Source of the DNA: Pythium myriotylum
Taxonomy: Eukaryota; Oomycota; Peronosporomycetes; Pythiales; Pythiaceae
Assembly (NCBI GenBank): GCA_023091665.1
Contig: JALJCQ010000012.1
Coordinates: 2,790,001-2,854,000 of the forward strand
Direction of reading: 5' to 3'
Length of the DNA stretch: 64,000 nt
The first letter of the stretch is position 1, and each line of letters begins with the position of its first letter. A program made the translations under genes and the position numbers. The notes under the pieces were generated by a model, which worked only from the letters and a program-made list of their open reading frames with translations, was not told the DNA's origin and made no database searches. Shown one piece after another: positions 39,344 to 64,000 of this stretch.

Positions 39344-40759
39344 ATGGTGCTCGAGGTGACCGAGGAGCCGCTGCCGGCGGGCTGGGAGATCGCCATGTCG
39401 CGGTCCAAGAACAAGCCGTACTACTACCACGCCAAGAGCCAGAAGGTCTACTGGGTCGACGACGAGCTGCCGCGCGGCTGGGCGGCGCAGTTCGACGCCG
39501 ACGGCAAGCGCTTCTTCTTCCACATCCGCAACAAGCACGAGACGACCACGTACGACAAGCCCGTGCTGCGCGAGGCGCCCAAGAAGAGCAACTCGCTGCG
39601 GGACCTGCTCTCGCCCGCCGTCGACGAGGCCGAGCAGCCCGGCGCCTGGGCCGCGCGCCAGCAGCAGCACCAGCAGCAGGCGCCGCCCATGAGCATCGCC
39701 AGCCTCGTCACGCCCGCCAAGCGCTCGTTCGACCAGGTCGCCACGGACGCCGACCCGAACGCCGCGGCCGAGTTCTACAACAAACTCAAGCGCAACGCCA
39801 CGGCCGACCGCGCCGAGAGCCTGCTCTTCCACATGCGCTCGATGAACAACTGGGTCAAATCCATCCTCATCAATGAATATTCCAAGCGAGAAGACCACGT
39901 GCTCGACCTCGCCTGCGGCAAGGGCGGCGACCTCATGAAGTGGGCCAAGCGCGGCATCCTCAAGTACGTCGGCGCCGACATCGCGCAAAAGTCGCTCGAG
40001 GACGCCGTCGAGCGGTTCCTCTCGAACGTGCAACACCGCGACCTCGAAGTGCAGTTCGTGCAGGGCGATCTCGGCAAAGTCTCGCTGCTCCATGATGAGC
40101 TCCACTGCTGGACGCGCGAGCGTGGCTGGCACGACGCCGTGCCGCTCCCGAGCGGCCAGGGCTTCCAGATCGCGTCCATGCAGTTCTCCTTCCACTACAT
40201 GTTCGGCGACGAGCAGCGCGCACAGCAGTTTTTCCGCACGCTCCACGACGTGCTCGTGGACGGCGGTATCTTCATCGCCACGACCGTCGACCCGAACAAG
40301 ATCCTCCACAAGTACTACCAGAACCTGCACGCGGGCAAGCAGCCGGGCGACCCGGACGTGCGGATCGTCGACGAGCAGAAGCGCGAGGTGTGCACGATCC
40401 GCTTCGACGACGAGATCCGAGGCAAACTCGCGGGCTACGAGAGCGCGACCTCGAGCGGCTCGTTCGGACTGCGCTACAACTTCACGCTGCGAGACACAGA
40501 TGAGGAGTCGGGTGGCGACAAGGCCGTGGATCTGCCCGAGTACCTCGTGCCCGATGACCTGCTGGACCGATTGCTCAAGGAGAACGGCTTCGAGCTGCTG
40601 CTCAAACAGAACTTCCACCCGTTTATTACCAAGAACCTCGACCGCAACCGCTCGCTGCTCGACAAGATGCACGTACTCAACTACGCCGGCACGATCTCGG
40701 ACGCCGAGTGGGAGATCGCCGGTCTCTACCAGGTGCTCGCGTTCAAGAAGGCCTACTAG
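39344..40759 (+). CDS. mRNA cap guanine-N7 methyltransferase with two N-terminal WW domains
   Basis: 471 residues, single exon. ATG 39344 was chosen because the WW domain starts ten residues later; the frame is open to an earlier ATG at 39281. WW1 (9-43) has W14, YYY 26-28 and W37. WW2 (about 42-73) has W46, FFF 57-59 and Tyr70 instead of the second Trp. A Gln-rich linker leads to the Abd1/RNMT methyltransferase fold: FYNKLKR...ESLLFHMRSMNNWVKS, the AdoMet loop VLDLACGKGGDLMKW near 187-201, a QIASMQFSFHYMF block, and SFGLRYNFTL / LPEYLVPDDLL. The enzyme methylates the cap guanosine in the nucleus. WW domains usually bind Pro-rich or phosphorylated Pol II tails, which would recruit it co-transcriptionally. 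The stop overlaps that of the convergent gene. Confidence 0.93.
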   Translation: MVLEVTEEPLPAGWEIAMSRSKNKPYYYHAKSQKVYWVDDELPRGWAAQFDADGKRFFFHIRNKHETTTYDKPVLREAPKKSNSLRDLLSPAVDEAEQPGAWAARQQQHQQQAPPMSIASLVTPAKRSFDQVATDADPNAAAEFYNKLKRNATADRAESLLFHMRSMNNWVKSILINEYSKREDHVLDLACGKGGDLMKWAKRGILKYVGADIAQKSLEDAVERFLSNVQHRDLEVQFVQGDLGKVSLLHDELHCWTRERGWHDAVPLPSGQGFQIASMQFSFHYMFGDEQRAQQFFRTLHDVLVDGGIFIATTVDPNKILHKYYQNLHAGKQPGDPDVRIVDEQKREVCTIRFDDEIRGKLAGYESATSSGSFGLRYNFTLRDTDEESGGDKAVDLPEYLVPDDLLDRLLKENGFELLLKQNFHPFITKNLDRNRSLLDKMHVLNYAGTISDAEWEIAGLYQVLAFKKAY

Positions 40760-50478: not shown

Positions 50479-50862
50479 GTCAGTCCGTCCGTCCGTCCGT
50501 CCTTTCTTCCTTTCTTCCATGAAGTGGAGCCATGTTGCTGAATGACCAGCAACAAGACCACCCGACAATATTATTCTGGTGCTGCTGTGTCTCGTGGATG
50601 CTCACGCGATATGTGTGTGCGCACATGAGGTCTATTGGTCGCAATAACTGTGTCCTAATAGCTCAAGCGATCTGGAAAGGACGTCACAAACATGACAGGC
50701 AACCATGTTGGAAGTAAATGAGTCAGCTAAATGATTCGATTGAGCTAGTAGAAGAAGTAGATGAACACGCTGACAAGCCATAACGAATACAACGAAAGGC
50801 GAGGAGGAGCTCGTCCCAAAGCAACAGCAATACTAGTACCAAAAAACAACACCATCGCGAGG

Positions 50863-52713
50863 CTAGTTGGCGCGCGCAGCTCGCGCGACTCGAGCCAATG
50901 CGTCGGCGCGCTTCTGGGCCCACTTGGGGCTCTGCTCGAAGTCGTACACGCGCGCACGCTGGTTGGTGTCGTAGTTGGCCGGGACGTTCACGGAGACTCT
51001 CCGTGGCTGATGCGACCCGCGCGTGGTGGTGTTACCGCGCTGCGCCTGCGCAGTCTGCGGGACTGGGACTGCGGCGTTGGTGGAGCCACGGTGCAGCTGG
51101 AGCGGCTCTCGCGACGACGTTCGGCGCTCGACCTTGCCACGAGCTGCGATGGGCGTCAGTGTGGGCTTCGGCGTCGGCGTCGGTGTCGGTGCCGGGCGTG
51201 ATGGCGGCACCTGGGTGACGCGAAGTCGCGGAAGCAGCGGCGCGCTTGCGCTTGCGCTTGCGCTTGGGCTTGCGCTCGTTGTCGTACCGGCACGTACGTG
51301 CGAGACAGGTTTGCGTGGCGGCCGCGATGGCGTTCGACGAGGAGCTGATGACCTGGCGGCTGGCGATGGTGTCGTTGGTGTCGTCTCGACTGCGACGATG
51401 GCTTGATCGTCTTCATCTGATAGAGCGGTCGAGTCTGCGAGGTCTTCCTTCAGCTCGCTGGCGCCATCGACTTCGACTTGTTGGCTTGCGACTTCATGAT
51501 CTGGCGACAGAGAAGTCTCCAGCGCGTCTCGCGCAGGCTCTGCGGTTGGTGCTGGCTCCGAGAGTGCGCCCGAGGCCGGGTCCGAGTCCGAGTCCGAGTC
51601 CGGGTCCGGGTCCGGGTCCGACGCCGACTCCGACTCCGACTCCGACTCCGACTCGTCCGCCGTGTCAGATGCTGTCTCCGAGTCGTCGTCGTGGGTGATC
51701 TCAGCGCCTGCGGGCTCGATACGTGGCATCTTGATCGACGGATCCTGATACGTGAGAAGCTCTTGCGGTCCAAAGGTTGTCGTTGAAGACGACGACGAAG
51801 AAGAAGACGCCGCGCCTCGTTCCAAGGACGCCGAGTGCCAAGCCAATAACCAAGCACTCAGCACCGAGGTCGAGGCCGCGCTCCAAATCGGACTCAACAT
51901 CAACATGGACACCGGACGTGTCTGCGTGAGCTCGAGCGAGATCACCCGAGCACGAGCGACGGCGGCGGCGCGGGCATCAACATGAACGCCACGCGCGCCG
52001 TCCGTCACATTTGCAGTTGCAGACACGATCGCTGACGTCGGAGGCAAGAGGAGCTGGTCGTGGCTGACAGGTTGGGACTTGACGCGAGCGTGAGCAGAGC
52101 CGCCAAACGCGCCGTCGACGTCGACGTCGATGACCGAGACATTAAGTCCGATCCGCACGTTGACTTGGCGCCACGCGATCACGCGGCCATGGGCGTCCGT
52201 GATGGGGATGCTGAGCGAGCCGCGGCCCACGAGCGTGAGCGCCTTGGTCATGGTCGTGGAGACGGTCGCGAGGATGCAGCGCACGGCGGCGGCGGCATCG
52301 AAAGTACACACCGCGAGCTCGCACACGCAGCGTCCGATGTGGATGAAGAGACACCAAAGCGTCTTGGCGGCGAGTCCCGCGACGGCGACGAGCGCGATCG
52401 GTGCGTGCGAGACGACCCGACGAGCCGCGAGGAGCGCGAGAACGGCGAGAACGGCGAGATCGGCGAGCGCGCGGGCCATGCGGCCTAGGTGGCGCAGCGT
52501 CCGCCGCAGTGCGCGCAGAAGCACGAGGAGGTGGGCCGCCGCAGCGTCGATGGCCGCGAGGAGGTGGAGCTCGGCGAGGTCTTCGAGAGCGTCGCAGAAG
52601 TGGCCGTAGATGGCGGCCCAGTGGAAAACCTGGAGCGCGCCGTGGAGACCCGTCAAGATGATGTGGACGATCAAGTCGACGAAGAAGAGCGCGAAGTCCA
52701 TGGCGGTGGTCAT
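50863..52713 (-). CDS. Membrane-associated low-complexity protein, unknown
   Basis: 616 residues from ATG 52713 (MTTAMDFALFFVDLIVHIIL), no intron. The frame is open for another 76 codons upstream, but those look non-coding. The first 170 residues are Ala/Leu-rich and hydrophobic with several possible helices (the LVLLRALRRTLRHLGRMARA and VSHAPIALVAVAGLAAKTLW regions). The rest is low complexity: a DSDSDPDPD/ESESES acidic block (about 375-405), a Ser/Thr/Pro section, alternating SASASASA and PTPTPTPKPT repeats, and an Arg-rich C-terminus. No known domain. It may be a membrane anchor with an extended disordered tail. Repeats make the exact length prone to assembly error. Confidence 0.6.
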   Translation of the reverse strand: MTTAMDFALFFVDLIVHIILTGLHGALQVFHWAAIYGHFCDALEDLAELHLLAAIDAAAAHLLVLLRALRRTLRHLGRMARALADLAVLAVLALLAARRVVSHAPIALVAVAGLAAKTLWCLFIHIGRCVCELAVCTFDAAAAVRCILATVSTTMTKALTLVGRGSLSIPITDAHGRVIAWRQVNVRIGLNVSVIDVDVDGAFGGSAHARVKSQPVSHDQLLLPPTSAIVSATANVTDGARGVHVDARAAAVARARVISLELTQTRPVSMLMLSPIWSAASTSVLSAWLLAWHSASLERGAASSSSSSSSTTTFGPQELLTYQDPSIKMPRIEPAGAEITHDDDSETASDTADESESESESESASDPDPDPDSDSDSDPASGALSEPAPTAEPARDALETSLSPDHEVASQQVEVDGASELKEDLADSTALSDEDDQAIVAVETTPTTPSPAARSSAPRRTPSRPPRKPVSHVRAGTTTSASPSASASASAPLLPRLRVTQVPPSRPAPTPTPTPKPTLTPIAARGKVERRTSSREPLQLHRGSTNAAVPVPQTAQAQRGNTTTRGSHQPRRVSVNVPANYDTNQRARVYDFEQSPKWAQKRADALARVARAARAN

Positions 52714-53207
52714 GGTGGCGCTTGTCTTGTGTTGTCGGAGAGGATGGAGCGGGAGGAGGGAGGGAGGGAGGGAGGGAGGTGTGGCTTGCTTGGTTGGCGG
52801 AGCGGATGTTGGGAATGGAGTCGGCGAGGGGGGGGGATCCAGGGTCTCGATAGTATGGGTACGGAGGGGCGACGTGGTGTGGCAGCGGGGTCGATGGGAC
52901 CGAGGAGGGGTGAGCAGGCGAGATCTTTGGTTCTCGCGCAAGAGCTCGTGGAGTGTTCGAACTTTCTAGGTGTAGGGCTGAGGCGTTTCGGAGGCACGTG
53001 ATTGGGTCGGTCTGTGCAGTTAGTTCTCTTGGAGTGGAGACTGGTGTACTATATAGTACATCATCGCTGTCTCTGAGGGTGTCTAGGGGTACGCTCGGTG
53101 CTCTTATATGCGAAGGAGGAGCGGACAGTGTGCATAGAGGATAAACTCCGTCCGCTAGGGTACGGGTGGCGCCAGTGTCGAATTCCACCACTAAGCGAGT
53201 GGAAGCG
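52714..53207. other. Spacer between divergent genes
   Basis: About 490 bp carrying both promoters. A purine run of aggg units (52749-52781, five tandem copies plus flanks) could form a G-quadruplex on the + strand. A ggggggg stretch lies at 52830-52836. Otherwise featureless. Confidence 0.5.
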
Positions 53208-54106
53208 ATGAAGCGGGTACGCGATGAGCATGAGGAGGACGACAAGGAGGAGGAGGAACCGCGAGACGAAAGTATTCTCCCAGACCAGATCTCTGGGCGT
53301 CGCTGGCAAGATATTCCGCGAAACGCGAAGCTCACCGAGGCCGAAACACTCACGTTTTTCAGCGAGTTCAAGAGCGCTGGAGAACTCACCGACGAAGATG
53401 TCATCGAGCGCTGCAACTTCCTTGTGCGGCATGCGCCTCCCAATAGCTATCTGAGCTTGAAGATTAAAGGCAAATTCGTCCAACTTATCAAGCGCCTTGA
53501 GAAGGTATGTGATTGTTACTAGTCGCCATCCATTGAGCCTCGGTGTTTGATGTGCTCTAACCTTATCTGTAGGTCGACCCAAGAGAGCACTGCCTCAGTC
53601 GTGATGACTGTCTTCAACCAAGCGGCGTTGTCTGGAAGACTGGCGAAGAGATTGAGGCCGCCGGGCGAGACTGTTTCCCCGAAGACGTGATGATCTGCAC
53701 CATCGACAAAGATCTGTTCAAGTTATGGCCATTGCTGTCGTTCATGCAGGGCATTGGCACGCTCCATCAAGTCGACGGTCGCGCAATCGACCTTGGGCGA
53801 AAGATCATGCATCTGCTCGACGAGCTGGGCAAGAAATATCCGGCGCTCGCGAAGCTGCTCGATCCACCAACGGTTATCTTCAACCTACAGGCTATGAACA
53901 TCAACCCGGGTGCAGTCGTCATTCCCTCTGGACTCGCACCTGGAAATGTGCCCGCGTTCCCTGGCGCTGTCGGCATCTGGACTTGTCCATCAGAGTTACG
54001 CGCTGGCGAACTCATCGGCCACCTGCGTGCTACGCTCGCTCCCATCCTGCTGCCCGGCGTCGCCCCACGGTTTCATTATTTTAATGCACCTATGCAAAAC
54101 CTCTAA
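53208..54106 (+). CDS. Conserved-looking protein of unknown function, last host gene before the element
   Basis: Two exons, 53208-53504 and 53573-54106, with a 68 bp GTATGT...TAG intron; 276 residues. The start is the first in-frame ATG (MKRVRDEHEEDDKEEEE); the frame is open further upstream but without ATG. The N-terminus is charged, followed by helices (TEAETLTFFSEFKSAGELTD, SLKIKGKFVQLIKRLEK). Exon 2 contains LWPLLSFMQGIGTLHQVDGR, a helical LGRKIMHLLDELGKKYPALA, and a Pro/Gly-rich segment (NINPGAVVIPSGLAPGNVPA). I do not recognise the family. Codon usage is host-like, but the 3' flank turns A+T-rich within a few hundred bases. Confidence 0.65.
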
Positions 54107-54286
54107 ATTGATAATCTACCGCGCCAACTCGCCAACGGCCCGTCGTGCAGCTCGCCCCCGCTTCTACCAGAACCTGTGGCGCCATGGACGCGTTCTACCT
54201 GCACAGTTGTCGTGCCATCGTCGCTTCCGTCGCCAAGATCAGAATTGTCATTGCAGATATAAAAAGGTGGCCACCTCGATTCTCGT

Positions 54287-54524
54287 TATCAGAAGCAACG
54301 ATATCAGTTATGAAACATATCAGATGTTATGAATTCAGATAAATGATGGCCAAGTGTCCATGTCCAGCTCCAAAAAAATTCCATTTTTACTTTTACACTA
54401 TTTTTTACTAACCCCCTCCTACCCCCTTTCTTTATAATATTTTCTATAAGAATACAGAAAAAAGCTGGACATCTGGACACTAATAACATACATTGATCTA
54501 GAACTCATATCGTCGCTTCTGATC
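54287..54524. repeat. Foldback structure at the left border of the element
   Basis: The outer arms atcagaagcaacgatat (54287-54303) and 54508-54524 are reverse complements with one mismatch. An inner pair, agtgtccatgtccagct near 54353 and agctggacatctggacact near 54463, also inverts with a 2-base length difference. Together they make a nested 238 bp imperfect palindrome with no coding capacity. It could be the element's terminal hairpin or TIR, or a MITE that landed at the junction. Confidence 0.65.
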
Positions 54525-54666
54525 AAAAGAAAGCTGGCCACCAAAGCTGGACACACGTGGCCACTCACCTGGACAGCAACTTAATGCTCGACATCTCAGC
54601 GCAACCAGACGATGCAACACCCCCTGTTTTCGACCAAGGATACAAAAAAATACACACCTGGACACA
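54352..54666. repeat. Iterated tggaca/tggcca motifs
   Basis: The octamer ctggacac or close variants (tgtccag, ctggacat, ctggccac, ctggacag) occur about eight times in both orientations between 54352 and 54666, often preceded by aaag. Iterated short motifs beside a replication gene may be origin or regulatory iterons; this is inference. Confidence 0.45.
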
Positions 54667-54672
54667 ATTACG

Positions 54673-54766
54673 ATAAAGTGACTTCATGGTGGGATCCCCG
54701 CACGACGACATCATATAAGGTTCTTCCGCTAAAGTGACTCGCGGGTACCCCGACGACATCATAAAA
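54673..54766. promoter_or_regulatory. Imperfect direct repeat upstream of the helicase gene
   Basis: Two copies of an aaagtgact...ccc-cg-acgacatcata block, about 45 and 36 bases long, lie at 54676-54716 and 54731-54762. They precede the first element gene and are plausible promoter or operator repeats. No TATA-like box is as clear here as before the downstream genes. Confidence 0.5.
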
Positions 54767-54846
54767 AAATTATGATCTTAAGCGAAGAGTATATAGAATA
54801 TAAAAAACATAACCTTAGTAATATAACAAGTAATATAGCAACAACG

Positions 54847-57408
54847 ATGTGCAACTTCATCAAAGCCAACGGAGAACAGTGCAAGCTTGCTCGCAACAAA
54901 GATCGATGCGGGAAACATCAGATTATTCCAGTTGAACAAAATAATCTTGAGATCAGTATAGTAGAAGAAATGTCGCCACAAGTCAATACTCCAGTCATTG
55001 CCGAAGTTGTTGATACACCAGCGCCATCGGTAATCAAGCCCGTCGAGGTCTCGAATGTTGAAGTTAGTAAAGTTCCAGAATTGGATCAGTCGATTGTCGA
55101 ACCGGTGATCGCGGAAGGGGTGGTATATAAAGAGGATCAAAGTTCGGATTTGGAATTAAATAATTCGATTGATGAGGATGAATTCTTCTTTGAGAATTAT
55201 ATTGAAGAGGGCAGGGCATTTCAGTATGATGTAAAAGAGAATTCGCTAGATGCCACGGCAATCATTGGTGCTTTCGACGAATACATCAACGGCAAGGGCT
55301 TGGATATCGCAGATTCAGAAAAGACAGACAGAAGGGCATTTTTAGATGGGTATCGCTATTGCTTGTATATCCAGCAAGGTAACATGACTTTAGTTCATTA
55401 CTATTGCAAGACTGAACAGATGATGAAGAACATTCCGATCATGATCGGCGAGATAAACGTCGCTCAATATTGTGTGGCAAATAGGCTGTACGACCAGCGT
55501 CTACACAAACTATGCTGTATGATGAAGCGATCGTGGTTCAGTGATAACAACAATACTTGGAACTTGGCTGGTATGCTATATCGCAAGCAACATGTCGAAC
55601 TTGGATTGATGCGAAAGACATATCTGTGTATTTTGCATTCCATGACCGATCGATTTGATCAAGCTGCTGCGTTAAAAGTATTCAATGATTGGGAAACATC
55701 CAAATATCATCCGAAGCTATCTGAGTCTCAAATCAAATCCATTGCTGGTGGAACTGATCCAGAAGGATACAAGCAATGGAAAGCAGAGTATGAGCCAATG
55801 GAACTCAAAGAAAAGAAAGGCAAAGACGAAAACAAAACAAAACAAGATGACTTGACTGTTCCTTATTATCCTAAGTTTAATATCTACTACGAAGAGGGAG
55901 AATTGCCGCCAATCTTCTATTGTAAGAACGCAGAGACATATCTTGATGTTATCAGTCTGAAGAAAGAAGTCATCACAATGGACAGAATCTACAAGTTTAT
56001 CAAAAACAACATTGCTTACATTTTGCAAGGGGGGAACGGATACTACTTGACTAAGAATCGAGATGCTTTCGGAGATATCGATTACACAGTTATCCCCCGT
56101 ATCAATCAATTCGATATGATGTTCAATATCAACAATACGATCGAATTAGATGATAATGGACTTATTGAGACTGATAACACAGAATTTGACACCGATAGCA
56201 TCATTACTTTGCCGCTGTCTGACGTGATTCACCATTATAGAGATGATATCACGTTTGGTAAAGTTGATTTTATGCCGTACAACGCGAAGACAGGTGCGTG
56301 CGATACTAAGTTGAATCAGTTCAACTGGAACTCCAATGAAGTATTTAACAAATTCAACGGATTCGTTCATACCTACGATCCTAACTTTATTGTCGATCAA
56401 TCAAAGTTTAAACTCTTTGAAGATCATATCAAACACATTTGGTGTGGAGGTCGTGATGATTTGACTAATCATATCATGAAGTTATTTGCTTGGTATGTTC
56501 GACGTCCGTATGAAAAGTCAGGAGCTTGTGTCGTTCTTGAGGGGGAGGAAGGTTGCGGTAAGAATATTGCGTTTGAGATTCTGAAAAATCATGTCATCGG
56601 GACTCGCTACTGTCTTGAGACGCCAAAGATGAAAATTCTGACTGGTCGCTTCAACTCGGCACGCGAGCATAAGATATTGACCGTTTTGAACGAAGCAGCC
56701 AATGTCAAGCAATCCTCACATGAAGACCAAGACGAACTTAAAGACTGTATCACCGAGCCGACTTGTATGATTGAGAAAAAAGGCATCGACCCTTATCGAG
56801 TCAAGGACTGTAATAATCTCTTTATTGCATCCAACAATTCATACAGCGTGAAAGCATCAAAACAAATGCGTCGATTTCTATATTTGCTGTGTAAAAGTGA
56901 TCGTCTCGGCGATAAAGCATACTTCAAGGCGATGATTGACGAGTTTGATAACACTGATAGTGGTATTCATTTGTATCATTATCTTATGAATATGGACTTA
57001 AATGGATTCCATCCTCAGAACGACGCGCCAATGACCAAAGAAAAGTCTGATATGCAGAAGTCGGCTATTGAGAAGCCTGTTCAATGGTTTATCGAATGTG
57101 TGACCAATGGGACCAGCAACAGCATTTTCCAGGAAAGCCAGCATAAGGAAACGCCTGATACGTTAGAATTTGTATCGATTGATGACATGCTATCAAAATT
57201 CACTAAATGGATGATTGAAGAGGCCAAGGATGCATCGTTATACACGCGAGATCGATTCGCAAAGACGATATCTAAAGCTCTAGGGCCTAACTACAAGAAA
57301 CAAGTCCATAAAGTCCGTCGAAGAGGCTATGATCTATCGGTTAATGGTCTCAAACAAACGATTATCAAATACACTCGCCGGAGTGATTTGTTTGATGACG
57401 ATGAGTAA
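54847..57408 (+). CDS. SF3 helicase (D5-like) with N-terminal zinc motif
   Basis: 853 residues from ATG 54847, or 878 from an earlier in-frame ATG at 54772. The later start is preferred because the conserved-looking zinc motif begins there: C2-x9-C12-x8-C21-x2-H24 (MCNFIKANGEQC...CGKH), a small cluster also seen on many protist-virus proteins. A low-complexity acidic segment follows, then a helical region with DPEGYKQWKAEY that resembles primase-C-terminal linkers. The SF3 helicase core has Walker A GEEGCGKN (about 565-573), Walker B TVLNEA (about 612-617), and motif C NLFIASNN with sensor Asn (about 656-664). No primase catalytic triad was recognised N-terminally. Role: replicative helicase of the element. 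Confidence 0.9.
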   Translation: MCNFIKANGEQCKLARNKDRCGKHQIIPVEQNNLEISIVEEMSPQVNTPVIAEVVDTPAPSVIKPVEVSNVEVSKVPELDQSIVEPVIAEGVVYKEDQSSDLELNNSIDEDEFFFENYIEEGRAFQYDVKENSLDATAIIGAFDEYINGKGLDIADSEKTDRRAFLDGYRYCLYIQQGNMTLVHYYCKTEQMMKNIPIMIGEINVAQYCVANRLYDQRLHKLCCMMKRSWFSDNNNTWNLAGMLYRKQHVELGLMRKTYLCILHSMTDRFDQAAALKVFNDWETSKYHPKLSESQIKSIAGGTDPEGYKQWKAEYEPMELKEKKGKDENKTKQDDLTVPYYPKFNIYYEEGELPPIFYCKNAETYLDVISLKKEVITMDRIYKFIKNNIAYILQGGNGYYLTKNRDAFGDIDYTVIPRINQFDMMFNINNTIELDDNGLIETDNTEFDTDSIITLPLSDVIHHYRDDITFGKVDFMPYNAKTGACDTKLNQFNWNSNEVFNKFNGFVHTYDPNFIVDQSKFKLFEDHIKHIWCGGRDDLTNHIMKLFAWYVRRPYEKSGACVVLEGEEGCGKNIAFEILKNHVIGTRYCLETPKMKILTGRFNSAREHKILTVLNEAANVKQSSHEDQDELKDCITEPTCMIEKKGIDPYRVKDCNNLFIASNNSYSVKASKQMRRFLYLLCKSDRLGDKAYFKAMIDEFDNTDSGIHLYHYLMNMDLNGFHPQNDAPMTKEKSDMQKSAIEKPVQWFIECVTNGTSNSIFQESQHKETPDTLEFVSIDDMLSKFTKWMIEEAKDASLYTRDRFAKTISKALGPNYKKQVHKVRRRGYDLSVNGLKQTIIKYTRRSDLFDDDE

Positions 57409-57425
57409 TCACTGATCACTTGTGC

Positions 57426-57439
57426 AAAAAAAAAATAAT
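57426..57439. terminator. A-tract between convergent element genes
   Basis: Ten A residues followed by taat lie between the stop codons of the helicase and the first GIY-YIG gene. The same A8-10-TAAT arrangement recurs at 61448-61459 between another convergent pair, suggesting a shared 3'-end signal acting on both strands. Confidence 0.4.
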
Positions 57440-57456
57440 CTGCTAGACATTGATTG

Positions 57457-57972
57457 CTACTGAGCTTCAGCCCATCTGATATACTTTTTAGATTTGAAGT
57501 GATATGTTCTACCTCGATATTGGTAATGACCACCACATTCACAGGTTACCTTCTCGACAAGTCTATCATTATTTAGCTCGTTGTATTGCTTGTTTTTCTC
57601 GTTGAGCACTTCTTTGTTGGTCTCCCAATATTTTTTCGTACTCTCTCTCTGTTTTTCTCTTTTTAATAGTCCAAATGGAGGTACCTTATTCACACAAGTT
57701 CTCTTGAATTTGTTGATCCATAGCGTTTCGTAGGCATGCAGCTGATGTCTATCGGCAACCTCATACTGCTTGATCAATATAATCTTAAACTCGTACGGAC
57801 CATATTTCCTGAAATACGGATAGATTGCAATTTCGCTTGTTGATTTCCCTTTATCCCAACGTTTAAAATTAGACCGATGCCCGTTCATACGATGTTTGAG
57901 TAGATTAAACGTGCTACCCACATAGCAAATGTCGCTTTGACTACAAACGATTTTATAAACTGAACCGATCAT
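57457..57972 (-). CDS. GIY-YIG nuclease 1
   Basis: 171 residues. The N-terminal GIY-YIG fold reads GSVYKIVCSQSDICYVGST, with catalytic Arg (R28, KHRMNGH) and Glu (E82 in HAYETLWI) in the expected places, so it is probably active as a single-strand-nicking endonuclease. A basic linker leads to a C-terminal mini zinc motif C144-x-C146...H158, where the fourth ligand position holds Tyr164 (KSKKY). In the paralogue at 61466-62068 this position is His. Encoded opposite to the helicase, 48 bp from its stop. Such genes in protist viruses are often homing or lineage-specific nucleases; a role in integration or recombination is also possible. Confidence 0.9.
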   Translation of the reverse strand: MIGSVYKIVCSQSDICYVGSTFNLLKHRMNGHRSNFKRWDKGKSTSEIAIYPYFRKYGPYEFKIILIKQYEVADRHQLHAYETLWINKFKRTCVNKVPPFGLLKREKQRESTKKYWETNKEVLNEKNKQYNELNNDRLVEKVTCECGGHYQYRGRTYHFKSKKYIRWAEAQ

Positions 57973-58024
57973 GACTATTGTTATACTTATAGCATTTATA
58001 CATCAAGATCAAACATAACTAAAG

Positions 58025-58495
58025 TTATCCCAATCGAAAGCTCCCGCCTTTCATACGACGGCGAGTCACGGGAGGCGCCATTCCAACTCCTGTGAATTGT
58101 CGCACACCCTTTCGAATTTCGTGACTGAAACCACCGGTTTCTGGGCCGGCTAGATCGGCAATCTTGTCGAGTGCGGTTCCAACAATTGGTTTCCAATTAT
58201 CTTTGAGAAATCCACCAATGCTTTTAGCAGTAGATTTAACTCCTTTCCACAGATCTCCCCAGAAGCCAGAGCCACTAAGTCCCGACTGATGCGTCCGTAG
58301 AACTTCTCCGTGAGACATATGTAATTTCGTCCCTTTGCCCGATTCATAAGCCTTTACTAGCTTCTTGTAGTTCTCAGGATGGAAATAATGCGCATGGCCC
58401 TTATTTAATTGAGAATGGCTCAAACGAACGGGCTTGCCATGTAGGACTTTAAGAGCCTGCGCGTGGCTCAAATCGACGGGGAATTCCTTGTACAT
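58025..58495 (-). CDS. Small glycine-rich protein, possible internal capsid (pVI-like) protein
   Basis: 156 residues. The N-terminal half has repeated LSHxQ-type segments (DLSHAQALKVLHGKPVRLSH, KLHMSHGEV), common in small structural proteins of PLV-like viruses. The C-terminal half is an amphipathic stretch, GSGFWGDLWKGVKSTAKSIG followed by GFLKDNWKPIVG, resembling membrane-active cement proteins such as adenovirus pVI. It then becomes basic (TRRRMKGGSFRLG). Function is inferred from build only. It shares a 46 bp intergenic gap with the divergent recombinase gene. Confidence 0.55.
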   Translation of the reverse strand: MYKEFPVDLSHAQALKVLHGKPVRLSHSQLNKGHAHYFHPENYKKLVKAYESGKGTKLHMSHGEVLRTHQSGLSGSGFWGDLWKGVKSTAKSIGGFLKDNWKPIVGTALDKIADLAGPETGGFSHEIRKGVRQFTGVGMAPPVTRRRMKGGSFRLG

Positions 58496-58518
58496 CTAAA
58501 TTGAATATCTGGATTACT

Positions 58519-58525
58519 TATATAC
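58519..58525 (+). promoter_or_regulatory. TATA-like box before the recombinase gene
   Basis: tatatac begins 23 bases before the recombinase ATG (58542), in the short gap shared with the divergent small structural gene. Similar TATA boxes stand 14-23 bases before the ATGs of two other + strand element genes. Confidence 0.5.
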
Positions 58526-58541
58526 AGAGCGAGAGACAAAA

Positions 58542-59810
58542 ATGTCGAAGGTTAATAAATCTAAAACACTCAGTCTGGATGAATTTAAAAATACTATCAC
58601 TCGTGATATTAGAATGGGAAGCGAGCATGATAATTTGTCCGACACTACAGTAAATCTATACACCAGACAACTGGTCAAGCTTTACAAGGCCGGCGTTGCG
58701 AAACAACAATGGTCCCCAGATGAATTCATTTCCAATATTCATTATCCAACGAAATACGACGATGCCTCTTTTCAAAAGACGTTCAAGGTTCAGAACTCGA
58801 GCATCATTGCTCTTCTGATGAGCATCTATACAAGCAAAGAGAGTCTCATACTGACACTGAACGCCATGTGCAAAATGGTCAAGAACCGATTTCGTGAAGC
58901 ATTTGGATATTACAATGCGATTAGAAAGGAACTGAGTAAGCAAAACAAAGCTGAAAAGCTGGACAACGAACTGACGCCAGAAGAAGAGAAGAAGTACATC
59001 AGCTATGAAGAGCTAATGTCCGTCCCTGGTAAAGTTCATAAGGTGCTCACCGAAACGTATGGCAAAGTGTTTCTATCTCGATCCGAGTTTGAGGAGCTGG
59101 CTAAAGCTAAGAGGACTGAGTACTTGAAGCTCGTGTTTGATTACATCACACTGTGGTTGAACGTGCATTATCCACTTCGTTTGGTATGGCCGAGCGTTCT
59201 CCTCGCTCCAGAGGAGGGAGCTAACTATCTTCAGGGTAATACATTACATTTGAACGATTTTAAGAACGTTCGACTAATGGGACCGCAAACGATTCAGTTA
59301 GATAGTACGACGATGAGCTTGATCAAGTCATATCTCCACTTCTTGACTAATACGCTTGGAGAGCAGCCTAGTAAGCTACTATGGCGCATTTTCAATCGAC
59401 AGCCAGGCGAGTATGATTATACCAATTCGAGCAATAGCTTTAGTCAGGTCCTATCTAAGCTCTTTGTAAAGTACAATGGAAAGCCAATGTCAATGAATAT
59501 GATCCGGCACATTGCTGAGTCTCATTTGATCCAATCGCCAGCATATGCTAAACTCACCAATCGCGAGAAGAATGATCTACATGCCAAACTACTCCATAGC
59601 ACCATGGCAGCCAATACGAGCTATAACAAGATTGCTAATCGAGCGACGGCAGAAGTATCAGATGTCTCATTTGAGCCTGAGGCGCCTCCTGCAAAGCCCG
59701 CTGCAACGCCTCCAAGCAGGCCTAAAGACCGTCGGGAACGCATATTCCATGGAGACTTCACACCTACTGGCAGCGACAAGACGCTCGAGATTGACATATT
59801 TGAAACTTAA
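58542..59810 (+). CDS. Tyrosine recombinase (integrase)
   Basis: 422 residues. An N-terminal helical core-binding domain (LSDTTVNLYTRQLVKLY, then SIIALLMSIYTSKESLIL) precedes the catalytic domain. Catalytic candidates in order: R213 (HYPLRLVW), Lys near 241 (HLNDFKNVRL), R322 in MNMIRHIAE, H352 in AKLLHSTM, and nucleophile Y361 (ANTSYNK). The spacing H352-Y361 and the order R..R..H..Y fit the family, although the usual H of the HxxR box reads differently (S-MNMIR). A Pro-rich tail follows. It is the likely integrase of the element, inserting it into host DNA through a 3'-phosphotyrosine intermediate. The frame is intact. Confidence 0.85.
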   Translation: MSKVNKSKTLSLDEFKNTITRDIRMGSEHDNLSDTTVNLYTRQLVKLYKAGVAKQQWSPDEFISNIHYPTKYDDASFQKTFKVQNSSIIALLMSIYTSKESLILTLNAMCKMVKNRFREAFGYYNAIRKELSKQNKAEKLDNELTPEEEKKYISYEELMSVPGKVHKVLTETYGKVFLSRSEFEELAKAKRTEYLKLVFDYITLWLNVHYPLRLVWPSVLLAPEEGANYLQGNTLHLNDFKNVRLMGPQTIQLDSTTMSLIKSYLHFLTNTLGEQPSKLLWRIFNRQPGEYDYTNSSNSFSQVLSKLFVKYNGKPMSMNMIRHIAESHLIQSPAYAKLTNREKNDLHAKLLHSTMAANTSYNKIANRATAEVSDVSFEPEAPPAKPAATPPSRPKDRRERIFHGDFTPTGSDKTLEIDIFET

Positions 59811-59824
59811 TTTATTTACAACAG

Positions 59825-59832
59825 TATATAAA
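59825..59832 (+). promoter_or_regulatory. TATA box before the small split gene
   Basis: tatataaa lies 14 bases before ATG 59839. It is the best match to a TATA consensus among the element's intergenic gaps. Confidence 0.55.
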
Positions 59833-59838
59833 GCGATC

Positions 59839-60314
59839 ATGGAGCAATCACAAAGCGATCGTAAAGCGGACACGAAACAAACAAAAGTATATCGCAAAGT
59901 GGTCCATTCCACGTTGAATTCCATGGATTACAAGCATGTCTAAGGAACGACAAGACTCGAGCCAATATCAAGTCTATGCTCGTCTCTCATGCGTTTGTTG
60001 ATCTATGGCGAATGATTGAAGAGGATAAAAGCTTTGACAGGGCTTTGTTTGACCTTCTCGATGAGCCCGAGCGCGACTTTATGAAATACTGCCTAAACAA
60101 ATTTAAGATTACTTCACGAGGGTTTGAAAGTGCGTATAATCAGCTTCTAGATGGTTTGGTCAAGCGTCTGAAGATGCTCGAAGGCGCAAAGAACATTGGC
60201 GATGATTCACCACTTATAAAAACGGAAATGAAGTCAATCCTTGACAAACTATACGAAAAAGTTGTGTTCTCTACCTCCTACTACAGTCAATTCAAGCGTC
60301 TGATGAAGCTTTAG
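59839..60314 (+). pseudogene. Small helical protein gene split by an apparent frameshift
   Basis: ATG 59839 opens a 34-codon frame that ends at a TAA (59941-59943). The frame one base back is open straight through this point and continues to 60314 (last part from ATG 59976: MLVSHAFVDLWRMIEEDKSF ... QFKRLMKL). The first frame has the TATA box, the second has the bulk of the protein, so together they look like one gene of about 155 codons with a single-base loss near 59940, or a sequencing error. No slippery heptamer is visible, so programmed frameshifting is unlikely. The C-terminal part is helical and charged. Family not recognised. If translated alone, 59976-60314 makes 112 residues. Confidence 0.55.
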
Positions 60315-60567
60315 ATCTCTTAGACTCGCGTTTGAAGTTCAATAATTTTGAAGTATCAATGTAACGAGGAGCTTTCTTCTTTTTTTGCTCCTTGGCAAGG
60401 TGGCTAATGCTGATCTTCTGAAGCTGATTGGACAATGTCTCAATATTCGTTGAACCATAATCGTTTTTAGATGGAGCTACCGCTTTCGAGTGATCCACTT
60501 CGCCTGATCCATCAATCTCCATTGCCTGAGGCATTAATTGTCGTCGAATTCTCTTTCGTCGATGCAT
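60292..60567 (-). CDS. Small basic protein, possible DNA-binding
   Basis: 91 residues from ATG 60567 (MHRRKRIRRQLMPQAMEIDG). The frame is open upstream but without ATG. It is Lys/Arg-rich at both ends (MHRRKRIRRQ and KEQKKKKAPRYIDTSKLLNF), with a short helical middle. The basic character suggests nucleic-acid binding, perhaps a core protein; this is inference. Its stop end overlaps the opposite-strand small gene by 23 bp, and it is divergent from the penton gene with 37 bp between ATGs. Confidence 0.5.
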   Translation of the reverse strand: MHRRKRIRRQLMPQAMEIDGSGEVDHSKAVAPSKNDYGSTNIETLSNQLQKISISHLAKEQKKKKAPRYIDTSKLLNFKRESKRSKASSDA

Positions 60568-60586
60568 TTTTCTTTCTTTTGGATAG

Positions 60587-60593
60587 TATATAC
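60587..60593 (+). promoter_or_regulatory. TATA-like box between divergent element genes
   Basis: tatatac, 18 bases before the penton ATG (60605). The palindromic-leaning core (gtatatac) could serve both the penton gene and the divergent basic-protein gene. Confidence 0.5.
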
Positions 60594-60604
60594 AAGTAGA
60601 TAAG

Positions 60605-61404
60605 ATGTCATTTCCAATTCTGTTAAATTTGAACAACCAAGTGGCTACTCACCAATTCCGATATCGATTCTCGCAGCCCATTGATTTTAGTCAATATGAG
60701 ATTGCACTAGGATCTTTATCCATCTACTACTCTTGGCGAGCAATCACTGCTCAGCGTCAGAACAACAGCTTTAAGATCATATGGCCAACTGCTTCTAGTA
60801 CAACTACTTATTCAGTCACTTTGCAAGATGGCACATATTCGGCAAGCGATATCAACAACTACCTTCAATATTGGTCGATTCAGAACAATCTCTATTTGAT
60901 CAATAACACGACTGGCGCGTATTACTATTTCATCTCATGCTCTGAGAACCCTTCTAGCTATGCCTTGCAGTTTAATATGCAGCCAGTCAAGAATATCACA
61001 GGATACACTCCTGCTTCAGGGATGCCAACGCTTCCAGTCACAGCATACACGCCTCAGCTTCAAATCGATAACGCGGCGTTTGGAACTATCATCGGGTTCA
61101 GCCCGGCTACGTATCCCGCGGCTCAGACAACGAGCACTTATGCGGTTAATAGCAACTTGGTGCCAATGATCGATCCAGTCGCAGCGGTAGTCGTAACGTG
61201 CTCTAATCTCTATAATCCGATCGCGAGTAACAACCAGGTACTGCACACGTTCACATCTGCTGGCGTGGAGTACGGCGGATTGATAACTACCTCACAGGGT
61301 CAGGGCTGGCTTATACACCGATGCAAGGCACTAATAGCGAATTAACATTGTCATTTCTGGATCAAAATATGATCCCGCTTGGGATTATTGATAACAATTC
61401 ATGA
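60605..61404 (+). pseudogene. Penton / minor capsid protein, apparent 3' frameshift
   Basis: The frame from ATG 60605 runs 246 codons to 61345. Its N-terminal half carries the IALGSLSIYYSWRAI stretch (about 33-47), typical of PLV/virophage minor capsid (penton) proteins, and the whole is strand- and Asn/Thr-rich as expected for a jelly roll. The last 16 or so residues of that frame (QGWLIHRCKALIAN) look out of register. The -1 frame from about 61300 gives a more protein-like continuation ending at TGA 61402-61404, so the gene seems to have a one-base indel near 61290-61305. In an intact virus this protein would form the capsid vertices. If not a sequencing error, it marks decay. Confidence 0.7.
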
Positions 61405-61447
61405 ATTAGGCTGTTAATCCGCCCTCGTAAGAGCAACGGCAGTGAAT

Positions 61448-61459
61448 AAAAAAAATAAT
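61448..61459. terminator. A-tract between penton and GIY-YIG 2 genes
   Basis: A8 followed by taat, between the 3' ends of convergent genes, matching the arrangement at 57426-57439. Confidence 0.4.
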
Positions 61460-61465
61460 GCTTCC

Positions 61466-62068
61466 TTACTGAGTAGCTAACCATTGCTGATGTTTTTTTG
61501 TTTTGAAATGCGTGGAACGATTCGAATGACTATACGATCCACTGCACTCACAAACACTTTTTTGATTTTTTTGTAAGCGATACTGGTCAGGTCTCTTTCT
61601 GGCTTTCTCCATTTTTGCAACCTTGTCTTTGTTATTTATGCGATATTGTTGTGCGACTTGACACAGTCTATCTCTATTAAGTTGGTAGTGGGAGCGGTTT
61701 TGTTCATTGACCCTTTCGCGATTGTCTTCGCGGTATTGTCTATTATATAACCTCTTGATACAGATCGGAACAATTTTATTCATGCAAGTCAATTTTGAAA
61801 TCCACAAAGTTTCGTATGCCTCTAAATGCGTTCGATCCACCACTTCATATTCTTTGATTAGAATCATTTTGAAATTATCAACGCCAAACTCCTTGAAGAA
61901 TGGGTAAATCGAACACTTGGCTTTTGACATGTCTTTTAGCCATTCTTTGAATGCACCCTTATGCTGGTGAAATCGATCTCTAATTGTATTAAACGTGCTG
62001 CCAACATAGACATGATCACTGTGAATGCTCACGATCTTATATATTCTTCCGACTTTAGTGTCCGACAT
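61466..62068 (-). CDS. GIY-YIG nuclease 2
   Basis: 200 residues from ATG 62068 (MSDTKVGRIYKIVS); the frame is open 24 codons further upstream. The GIY-YIG core is GRIYKIVSIHSDHVYVGST, with catalytic Arg32 (IRDRF) and Glu86 (EAYETLWI). The middle is a longer basic helical linker (residues 105-165). The C-terminal zinc motif is complete: C173-x-C175, H187 and H193 (VCECSGSYSHSN, THFKTKKHQQW). Clearly paralogous to the nuclease at 57457-57972: same architecture, opposite strand to its convergent neighbour, both next to an A-tract. Duplication within the element or capture of two related homing nucleases is likely. Confidence 0.9.
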   Translation of the reverse strand: MSDTKVGRIYKIVSIHSDHVYVGSTFNTIRDRFHQHKGAFKEWLKDMSKAKCSIYPFFKEFGVDNFKMILIKEYEVVDRTHLEAYETLWISKLTCMNKIVPICIKRLYNRQYREDNRERVNEQNRSHYQLNRDRLCQVAQQYRINNKDKVAKMEKARKRPDQYRLQKNQKSVCECSGSYSHSNRSTHFKTKKHQQWLATQ

Positions 62069-62111
62069 ATTGTAGCTTCTATATCTTAGTAAATCTTTGC
62101 TCAAGATAAAC

Positions 62112-62732
62112 TCACAAGTCGCATACATACTCGATAACATTCTTGTAAATCTTCCGGTTGATGATATCCATTAACATGGTGCTCATTTTTTCGGATGTTG
62201 TTTGTTTGTAAAGATCGATGAATGTTTTAATTGGGATATCCGTGGGGAAATCGCGACAGATGATACCAAGGTCTCGCTGAGTTAGATTCCGACCAAGAAT
62301 TACGTACTGAGAGTTGATTCTAATGGTCTTCGGAATGCCAAAATACGATTGACTAATGTAGATCATGCTAAACCCAGACTTCCGCCCTCTAATGAAGTAT
62401 TGTCCAATCTGTGCTTGAGTCTTTTTAGGTTCCAACACAAGGTCATCAAAGATAACCAGTTTGCTAGTCTCAGAGTCGTATTCACTCATTGCTGGAACGA
62501 CTCCGTTTTCAAAAATCTCCACATTATCGATAGTATCTTTGACATGGTCATACAACACTTCATTGGACTTTGTCGAAATAAGGATTTTTGTGAAGCATTT
62601 GCTAAGAAGGGCGATTATGTAGAGAACGGTGTTTGACTTCCCAGAGCCACTAGGAGAGGCCACGCACATGCGAAATGGCAGCTCAAAGTGCTCGTTCTTA
62701 GGGAACCGCTTCAGTTTTGACTTTGGTATCAA
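62112..62732 (-). CDS. Genome-packaging ATPase (FtsK/HerA superfamily), start unclear
   Basis: The coding homology runs from about 62732 to 62112 (about 207 codons). Walker A is SPSGSGKSN (about 26-34 counted from 62732) and Walker B KLVIFDDL with Asp96-Asp97. SGFSMIYISQSYFGIPKTIR is the region just before the sensor and arginine finger. It resembles the A32-like packaging ATPases of PLVs, virophages and NCLDVs. No ATG lies in frame between the upstream stop (62765-62763) and residue 22, and the first ATG would delete the strand before Walker A. An out-of-frame ATG at 62766 leads to a stop after four codons. Either initiation is non-AUG or a small indel has broken the start. Confidence 0.8.
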   Translation of the reverse strand: MIPKSKLKRFPKNEHFELPFRMCVASPSGSGKSNTVLYIIALLSKCFTKILISTKSNEVLYDHVKDTIDNVEIFENGVVPAMSEYDSETSKLVIFDDLVLEPKKTQAQIGQYFIRGRKSGFSMIYISQSYFGIPKTIRINSQYVILGRNLTQRDLGIICRDFPTDIPIKTFIDLYKQTTSEKMSTMLMDIINRKIYKNVIEYVCDL

Positions 62733-62752
62733 TTCGTAGAAATTTTGCGTCT

Positions 62753-62762
62753 TATAGTATAG
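62753..62762 (+). promoter_or_regulatory. TATA-like sequence before the fibre gene
   Basis: tatagtatag lies 10-19 bases before ATG 62772, overlapping the probable 5' end of the divergent packaging ATPase. Confidence 0.4.
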
Positions 62763-62771
62763 TCATCAAAA

Positions 62772-64000
62772 ATGTCTTCACTGCCTCCAACAATTAGCTC
62801 TCCTTTATTCAATAGCTCATACTTTAACTCATCTAATGGCTACCTTACTTTAACTACAGGTGATCAAAGACACTTGCGGCTTGGTGGTGTTGGCACGCTA
62901 TCTTCTTTAAGCGTCATTGGTAATCTCGACATTGGCTCGTTGTCACTTGGCGGATCGCCTATTAGTTTATCCGCTATTTCAGGGATAACACTTGGTACTG
63001 CTCAGCCTAGCAAAGTGTTGTCATTGGATGGAAGTGGTTCTATCTCGACAATCACATCACTCACATCAACGACCTACTATGGAACAACTGCTAATATTCA
63101 GTTCATGAATACTGATATTCTATCAGCTGCTATCAATTGTAATGCCCCTATTTTCTATGCCCTATCAGCAAACAATACTGCTACTACTTCGACATATCAA
63201 CAATGGAGCAATACTATCGCATCACCAATCACGGTAGAGATGGATATGAACAATGTATCGCCTATCTTTGGTACTACGACGAATCATCCATTTAGAATTA
63301 TGACAAACAACACTCAGAAACTTATCATCAATTCAGGTGGTAATGTATCTATTGGTAATAGCAACAACACTTATAAATTGGATGTTGCTGGAACATCAAT
63401 TACTGATATCTTGAGAATTAGAGCTACTGGTAATTGTCCTGACTTTATTATCGATTCTCTAGATGGAGTTGGCGGAACTGATTCAGGATTACGAATCTAT
63501 GCTGCAAGTCAAAATCTACTCACATATTCAAATATGTCATTCTTCAACCCCGCAAGAACAGTGAATATTGCTACGATATCTACTGTGAATCAAAATTGTT
63601 TTCATACAAGAGTTCAATTAGGCGCTGATACAAATGCTACAATGCCTAATGTTGGGTTTTGTAGTGGTAATAATGCTATTTGTAGAGATGCTCTTATGAT
63701 CACCGCTAATGGTTTAACTAATAGTTCAAATTACACACCTCAAGCAAAATTAACCATATGCGCGTCTCAAACATACCCTGATGGAGGATACAATAAAGCA
63801 TTGAGGATCACGAATCCTAACTTTGTTAATGAATTTCAAATTCAAATTACTGATGCTAATGGTGGCGATACATGGATGGGAAATGTCAGTAATACTGGTC
63901 TTCGATTTGGAGTCAATAATTCGACTGCTATGTATTTAACAACTGCGGGGCGTCTTGGTATTGGAACGACAAGTCCTGTAGCCCCTCTTCATGTGGTTGG
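62772..64000 (+). CDS. Tail-fibre-like / adhesin-like protein, 3' end outside window
   Basis: From ATG 62772 the frame stays open to the last base of the window: at least 409 codons with no stop. It is Ser/Thr/Asn/Gly-rich and beta-prone. The segment GTAQPSKVLSLDGSGSIS (from about residue 74) matches a motif widespread in fibre proteins of algal viruses. GNVSIGNSNNTYKLDVAG (about 190) and GRLGIGTTSPVAPLHVVG (about 392 to the end) are two copies of the G-x-(V/L)-x-IG...LxVxG repeat that in phage and algal-virus fibres precedes a C-terminal intramolecular chaperone (peptidase S74) domain. That domain would lie beyond the window. No signal peptide. Likely a surface fibre used to bind the host. 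Confidence 0.8.
   Translation, partial: MSSLPPTISSPLFNSSYFNSSNGYLTLTTGDQRHLRLGGVGTLSSLSVIGNLDIGSLSLGGSPISLSAISGITLGTAQPSKVLSLDGSGSISTITSLTSTTYYGTTANIQFMNTDILSAAINCNAPIFYALSANNTATTSTYQQWSNTIASPITVEMDMNNVSPIFGTTTNHPFRIMTNNTQKLIINSGGNVSIGNSNNTYKLDVAGTSITDILRIRATGNCPDFIIDSLDGVGGTDSGLRIYAASQNLLTYSNMSFFNPARTVNIATISTVNQNCFHTRVQLGADTNATMPNVGFCSGNNAICRDALMITANGLTNSSNYTPQAKLTICASQTYPDGGYNKALRITNPNFVNEFQIQITDANGGDTWMGNVSNTGLRFGVNNSTAMYLTTAGRLGIGTTSPVAPLHVV

Follow-up and report, generated by a model that had tools for sequence, protein, structure and literature searches.

A stretch of 64,000 nucleotides from the oomycete Pythium myriotylum (the window; bases 2790001-2854000 of its contig, C12) holds part of an integrated polinton-like virus (PLV) that is split by the window edge. 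With 20 kb past that edge included in the analysis, the element extends from window position 53056 to C12:2865959 (C12:2843056-2865959), a length of 22.9 kb, or ∼16.9 kb without a nested Copia element. It is a real, essentially complete integrated PLV of a kind already published. Taken as a whole, the reading is highly probable that this PLV of a Pythium-lineage oomycete, most likely a member of the Gossevirus (GKS1) group, integrated by recombination at an attachment (att) site and spread between genera as a capsid-forming virus, the last two points being inferred. The docking sequence repeated at its ends suggests a route by which small DNA viruses may enter chromosomes, a step that is poorly understood.

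Terminal Repeats and Extent of the Element

The left terminal inverted repeat (1.72 kb; window 53056-54777, outermost bases GTACATCATCGCTGTC) was delimited by BLASTN and by comparison of junctions. Its right-hand copy forms two blocks, C12:2858242-2858637 and C12:2864628-2865959, with the Copia element between them. BLASTN aligned the inner block (window 54382-54777 with C12:2858242-2858637, inverted) at 99.7% identity over 396 bp and the outer block (window 53046-54387 with C12:2864628-2865969, inverted) at 99.9% over 1342 bp. The nested Copia element is ∼6 kb long, with 330-bp long terminal repeats that are 99.7% identical and an open pol frame of 1472 aa; elsewhere in the window, a Copia-type integrase fragment (12812-13954) resembles this pol protein by eye. 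The outer end of the terminal repeat could be fixed because inverted pairs of its first 80-120 bases also flank four other capsid loci. The original prediction, made from the window sequence, had drawn the left border at 54287 and expected a matching right terminus. A right terminal repeat was indeed found, but the small inverted pair at 54280-54309/54502-54531 is not the terminus, and the border moves to 53056. The "host genes" described as lying directly beside the element sit, in the case of the nearest ones, inside this repeat.

The A+T-rich character of the element was borne out: in 1-kb bins, G+C content was 38%-45% between 54 and 64 kb (ten bins) versus 54%-66% between 50 and 54 kb (four bins). 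G+C is higher in the outer 1.3 kb of the terminal repeat than in the element body. An open frame within this outer part (53573-54103, plus strand, stop to stop) has homologues on contigs C19 and C4: the terminal-repeat frames match C19:352358-352770 (88%) and C4:1179839-1180475 (71%-79%), neither of which is near a capsid match. Pfam, searched at E values up to 10, returned no match for two such frames, and they are probably host DNA captured by the repeat.

Host Junctions and a Virus-Free Site

The termini (GTACATCATCGCTGTC) adjoin short, mostly A+T-rich cores, followed by host DNA. At the left end of the window element, comparison of junctions defined a host half-site, GTAC (53046-53049), and a 6-bp core, TATATA (53050-53055), which is repeated at the right junction (C12:2865960-2865965). 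In the genome searched (58.7 Mb, 55 contigs), the 17-base terminus occurs exactly at 22 places, two of them being the ends of this element. Joining the two ends produces 12-bp arms, GCGATGATGTAC and GTACATCATCGC, around 6 bp; the 4 bp at the inner end of the arm are found again in the host sites. The core is the same at both ends not only of the window element but also of the elements at C6:777081/792012 (CATGTA) and C6:288904/355643 (CATATA).

Among 18 independent host flanks, the mirrored GTAC is exact in nine, and the core fits YATRTA in one or other direction in 13. At the C16:1161759 and C11:2260479 ends, GTAC stands at a spacing of 5 rather than 6. The 4- and 6-base end strings were taken by hand from the junction sequences. 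Identical duplicated flanks were counted once, and the C11:2260479 and C15:123942 ends were added. The count omits junctions between elements (on C30, positions 221626, 221633, 237554, 237561, and 302329 with the facing 302336; on C28, two), the mutated terminus at C1:1582106, and a chance match with eight mismatches on C14. The mutated terminus at C30:3328323 was kept; without it, GTAC is exact in 8 of 17. An exact GTACYATRTAGTAC is present at 12 places, comprising ten element ends, one worn element end (C29), and one site in plain host DNA (C6:276213). On C30, neighboring elements were observed with one common core between two facing termini.

A virus-free, inverted duplicate of the locus lies ∼4 kb past the right end. 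Its two flanks (98% identical over 259 bp and 99% over 299 bp) are joined at GTAC-AGTAT-GTAC, and AGTAT is also found at the ends of the C16:1161759 element. Just downstream there is a partial inverted duplication of the insertion locus itself (L003 1952-7365 against window 50484-53059), which takes in some of the gene at 50863-52713. Identical inverted flanks were seen at three other elements (C12:231403/258229, at least 1.5 kb; C16:1161759/1178239, whole 601-bp pieces; C7:1204480/1209025, ∼55 bp) and may be either real palindromes or assembly artifacts.

Tyrosine Recombinase and Proposed Mode of Integration

The gene at 58542-59810 (plus strand, 422 aa) encodes a tyrosine recombinase (integrase) of predicted activity, as judged from its catalytic residues and a structure model with a Cre-like fold and catalytic domain. 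Across 36 aligned relatives, R322 and H352 never vary; conservation of R213, K241, and Y361 is 90% or higher. The active-site pattern R-K-(H/N)xxR-H-Y is present, with Asn at the first position of HxxR, where His is the usual residue in tyrosine recombinases. Pfam gave no match at E values up to 10, and a sequence search of the PDB returned antibody chains only.

Tyrosine recombinases of this class are described as using two inverted repeats of 11-13 bp, 6-8 bp apart (PMC3212892; here and below, statements on cited papers refer to the parts of their text that were available). In the mechanism proposed here, the linear genome would circularize, and its two ends would meet as a palindromic att site with the arms GCGATGATGTAC and GTACATCATCGC around 6 bp. 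The Cre-like recombinase would exchange this site with host sites, GTAC half-sites around ∼6 bp, and the exchange would leave the core at both junctions. Extended to tyrosine-recombinase PLVs at large, the proposal is that they integrate in a Cre/lox- or phage-like manner through a 30-bp palindromic att, that GTAC-N6-GTAC targets include the ends of resident copies and so give rise to arrays, and that the same lineage moved between Pythium- and Phytophthora-lineage oomycetes after the hosts had split; we lean toward this combined view, with reservations. The 14-bp target, the att palindrome, and the virus-free copy of the site make the entry of a PLV into a chromosome testable in vitro.

Several observations sit poorly with such an exchange. 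The same 6-mer is present at both ends in only three of the six informative pairs, those with unrelated flanks; the ends do not match at C30:3210136/3225845, C30:221633/237554, and C11:2260479/2261562, and the C12:231403, C16:1161759, and C7:1204480 pairs, with the same flank inverted on both sides, are uninformative. With one mismatch allowed, the 14-bp pattern gave 59 matches against 47 for a reversed control, a modest enrichment. The empty site carries AGTAT (5 bp), not TATATA, and is not a letter-perfect pre-insertion site; a later change in one of the two copies, or replacement of the core, would explain the difference. A circular form was not seen, and public viral contigs, among which records very near this genome were possibly left out, contained no exact match to the joined palindrome.

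Half of these informative pairs share a 6-mer that nevertheless differs between elements, a pattern that could also arise if the PLV had been inserted in trans by the RVE integrase of a Polinton-type lineage, the repeated 6 bp then being ordinary target-site duplications. A Polinton-type element with RVE integrase, chromodomain, and PolB is present in the same genome, and 6-bp duplications are typical of RVE integrases (PMC12220804). In contrast, the mirrored terminal GTAC in 9 of 18 flanks and the YATRTA cores in 13 of 18 point to sequence-specific recognition from both sides, which is recombinase-like, and all seven loci with close capsid matches carry a close copy of the tyrosine recombinase. 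Insertion in trans thus appears unlikely. Recombinase-made junctions are, on the sequences, the better reading than a 6-bp RVE duplication, because the joined ends have the geometry described for such recombinases (12-bp arms flanking 6 bp) and the arm's innermost 4 bp recur in the host sites. A further concern, raised in the original prediction, was a contig misjoin with contaminant viral DNA, and inverted duplications in the flanks are able to mislead assemblers. Such an artifact is nonetheless extremely improbable, because the 17-base terminus recurs at 22 exact places and a virus-free copy of the site exists ∼4 kb away. Moreover, element ends are found at many places with different host flanks, and a Copia element with 99.7% identical long terminal repeats is nested in the PLV.

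Selection and Probable Spread between Genera

To compare copies within the genome, synonymous (dS) and nonsynonymous (dN) divergence was calculated for six genes by the Nei-Gojobori method with a custom script, pairing the window copy with copies on C6 or C16. dS was 0.15-0.19 for the capsid (both copies) and GIY-YIG nuclease 1 (C6), 0.5-0.6 for the recombinase (C6) and protease (C16), and ∼1.0 for the ATPase and penton candidate (C16). dN/dS ranged from 0.05 to 0.10 in these comparisons; between the C6 and C16 capsids, dS was 0.04 and the ratio 0.16. Because dS differs by gene, the copies appear to be mosaics assembled from lineages of unequal age; the low dN/dS indicates that the structural protein genes have been under purifying selection across copies in this genome.

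Identity to proteins of other oomycetes was measured both by BLASTP and over MAFFT-aligned residues; unlabeled figures are of the latter kind. The capsid is 97.5% identical to that of Phytophthora nicotianae and 96.6% to that of Plasmopara halstedii (94% and 93% by BLASTP), with 81% for P. cactorum and 76% for P. infestans. The recombinase is 95.7% identical to its counterparts in P. lilii and P. fragariaefolia, 93% in P. sojae, and 90% in P. infestans. In contrast, the mRNA cap methyltransferase gene of the host (39281-40759) shows 65%-68% identity to the five Phytophthora/Plasmopara proteins compared, 77%-79% to Pythium insidiosum/P. oligandrum, 71% to Globisporangium ultimum, and 51% to Saprolegnia. 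BLASTP gave 70%-72% for Pythium and 54%-58% for most Phytophthora rows of similar coverage, and the virus is closer than the host gene under both measures. The 77%-79% identity of this gene to Pythium orthologues, together with the gene set between terminal repeats, upholds the initial assignment of the element as a PLV integrated in an oomycete genome.

In a capsid tree of 34 rows, the three copies from this genome group with P. nicotianae, Plasmopara halstedii, and P. lilii in a clade with full support. The order inside the clade is unsettled, and support is partial for the deeper forks that place it among other Phytophthora sequences. Because of this unsettled order, the tree alone is compatible with vertical descent of one old virus lineage. 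The Phytophthora-Pythium radiation is dated to ∼80 million years (PMC8204020). Horizontal transfer of such elements has been inferred in general, and replication within a genome or group was judged more common (PMC10120064). The degree of similarity, set against one host-gene yardstick, makes horizontal spread between Pythium- and Phytophthora-lineage oomycetes probable. Tempering this conclusion, the recombinase is only 84%-94% identical to the P. nicotianae and Plasmopara proteins compared, the yardstick is a single gene, and the virus-host contrast is one of protein identity, not of silent divergence between genera.

The element would, in the proposed scenario, pass between oomycete genera as a capsid-forming virus and not solely by intragenomic copying. 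A rival view, in which the copies now move only within the genome as a transposon and have kept their capsid genes by chance, could be argued from the several copies that are broken or nested, including the window copy with Copia in its terminal repeat. However, the capsid, penton, ATPase, and protease genes differ mainly at silent sites (dN/dS 0.05-0.16, dS up to 1.0), and the capsid is far closer to the Phytophthora nicotianae/Plasmopara copies than the tested host gene is to its orthologues there, which makes a transposon improbable. The viral lifestyle suggested at the outset is still inferred, with support from purifying selection on the capsid genes and from the similarity across genera. 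The contrast between host and virus, read as probable spread between genera, bears on whether such elements are living viruses.

Capsid and Other Genes of the Element

A capsid gene had been sought beyond position 64000, and a candidate of 576 aa was found at C12:2855569-2857299 (minus strand). A close homologue (P0001) models as a double jelly-roll, with the Sputnik virophage as its best structure match in the PDB and further matches to mavirus and PBCV-1. A profile search of PDB sequences gave one weak match, to a viral structural protein (9nek_A, E 0.053); virophage capsids were not among its hits up to E 1, and the predicted likeness to virophage capsids is at the level of the fold only. 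The named relatives of the capsid are oomycete proteins, including one of P. infestans, and published work places oomycete capsids in the Gossevirus group, to which the element most likely belongs. The double-jelly-roll capsid (modeled on the close homologue) and the 1.72-kb terminal inverted repeats (99.7%-99.9%) are PLV features. The module of packaging ATPase, minor capsid candidate (by homology and position only), and protease is present as well. Markers of strict-sense Polintons (Mavericks), protein-primed PolB and RVE integrase, were absent from the scanned frames of the element, the only rve domain being that of the nested Copia; a separate lineage in this genome has both. Two peptide patterns from each of the recombinase and capsid alignments identified no relative in public viral contigs, where records very near this genome were possibly left out.

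From the left, the element encodes an 878-aa superfamily 3 helicase/primase-type replication protein (54772-57408, plus strand; DUF5906, E 3.1e-17; PHROG DNA primase, E 8.7e-25), GIY-YIG nuclease 1 (57457-57972, minus; PF01541, E 2.2e-6), and a 156-aa protein of no assigned function (58025-58495, minus), an open frame that matches the C6:777k copy at 96% of nucleotides over 440 bp. After the recombinase come two open frames of no assigned function: a 112-aa protein (59976-60314, plus), which matches the C6 and C14 copies at the nucleotide level and has no Pfam match at E up to 10, and a 114-aa protein (60292-60636, minus), with nucleotide matches in other copies. The penton, or minor capsid, candidate (60605-61345, plus) had no Pfam match at the same threshold. 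It gained a homologue in a gene adjoining the ATPase in the second lineage (33%, E 7e-34) and remains, by homology and position, a candidate. GIY-YIG nuclease 2 (61466-62140, minus; PF01541, E 6.5e-8) and the A32-type genome-packaging ATPase (62112-62732, minus; PF04665, E 1.8e-8) follow. Pfam matches thus agree with the earlier naming of the helicase, the packaging ATPase, and both nucleases, as catalytic residues and the Cre-like model do for the recombinase. The fiber-like gene noticed at the edge (62772-64000 and on to C12:2854484, plus; PHROG tail fiber, E 1.4e-5) reads in frame across it to a C-terminal peptidase S74 intramolecular chaperone domain (PF13884, E 2.3e-12). Beyond it lie a 333-aa protein, the capsid candidate, an adenovirus-type protease (Peptidase_C5, E 1.6e-4, only slightly above the cut-off), and an 87-aa frame.

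Copies and Related Lineages in the Genome

A capsid search of the genome returned 37 matches: 11 at 80%-100% (seven loci), one broken at 38%, and 25 at 23%-35%. The A32 ATPase had 31 matches. The recombinase had 11, seven of them close, one at each of the seven loci with close capsid matches, and four at 26%-27%, which lie 9-11 kb away from capsid matches of 27%-28% and on this evidence belong to a further lineage. One distant element, on C1 (∼909-925 kb), encodes an RVE integrase that carries a chromodomain, and part of a PolB lies where the analyzed sequence stops; by this one locus, a Polinton-type lineage with a related capsid is co-resident in the genome. The same mixture of lineages has been published for oomycetes (PMC7805220).

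Other insertions were noted in passing. At C6:325671-350685 (L016, L017), 25 kb of DNA bordered by TTAA and 13-bp inverted ends interrupts a broken relative of the capsid gene, and a 28% capsid match of the distant lineage lies inside the insert. The 13-bp end, CCCCTCTGTTACC, with TTAA was considered as a terminus of the second lineage and rejected, its 12-base part being present in just 2 of the 86 loci compared. It resembles an independent insertion of the piggyBac type. Two short stretches with PLV-type termini and no capsid match (C7:1204480-1209025 and C11:2260479-2261562) are possible non-autonomous derivatives. The 15.9-kb member of the C30 array at C30:221633-237554 has PLV termini, and the genome searches gave no capsid or ATPase match in it.

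Comparison with Known Systems

The view that oomycete PLVs are little known is outdated, since Gossevirus PLVs have been published from oomycetes (PMC7805220, PMC10120064). The present element shares with them an oomycete host and, probably, the capsid family: its relatives include a protein of P. infestans, an oomycete for which PMC7805220 names the Gossevirus capsid. It also shares the pairing of helicase-primase and tyrosine recombinase with five published oomycete elements of the group (PMC7805220, PMC10120064). Terminal inverted repeats were reported for seven integrated elements, three of them flanked by 5-7 bp repeats (PMC7805220). As many as 299 capsid copies were counted in a single oomycete genome, with horizontal transfer between host groups inferred at some point (PMC10120064). 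The available parts of both papers contain no att-site sequence, empty site, or host-versus-virus divergence between oomycete genera; the host here is of the Pythium lineage. The capsid of the Phytophthora water mold MELD virus (a third-party record, known from a protein match) is 68% identical and falls in another supported clade of the capsid tree.

Tyrosine-recombinase PLVs of cryptophytes (PMC12220804) and Oxyrrhis (PMC12721341) have the same integrase class and long terminal repeats. Unlike the present element, the cryptophyte PLVs are mostly without flanking repeats (putative ones of 7-23 bp in 10 of 232 in their cluster C1), and in Oxyrrhis none were found, as far as the available text goes. 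The cryptophyte flanking repeats, rare as they are, are often partly symmetric (PMC12220804), which would fit palindromic cores. A paper of December 2025 states that the precise mechanism of PLV integration is unknown (PMC12721341), and no PLV att-site sequence was found in a literature search whose scope excluded subscription papers and supplements. Crypton transposons of oomycetes likewise carry a tyrosine recombinase, and their 5-6 bp terminal direct repeats are thought to be recombination substrates (PMC3212892). In contrast to the present element, they have no terminal inverted repeats, most CryptonS have TATGG ends, and capsid genes go unmentioned in the available text (PMC3212892). Set beside these systems, the anatomy of the ends and att site, the similarity across genera, and the silent-site bias between copies look new, and the first two are worth following.
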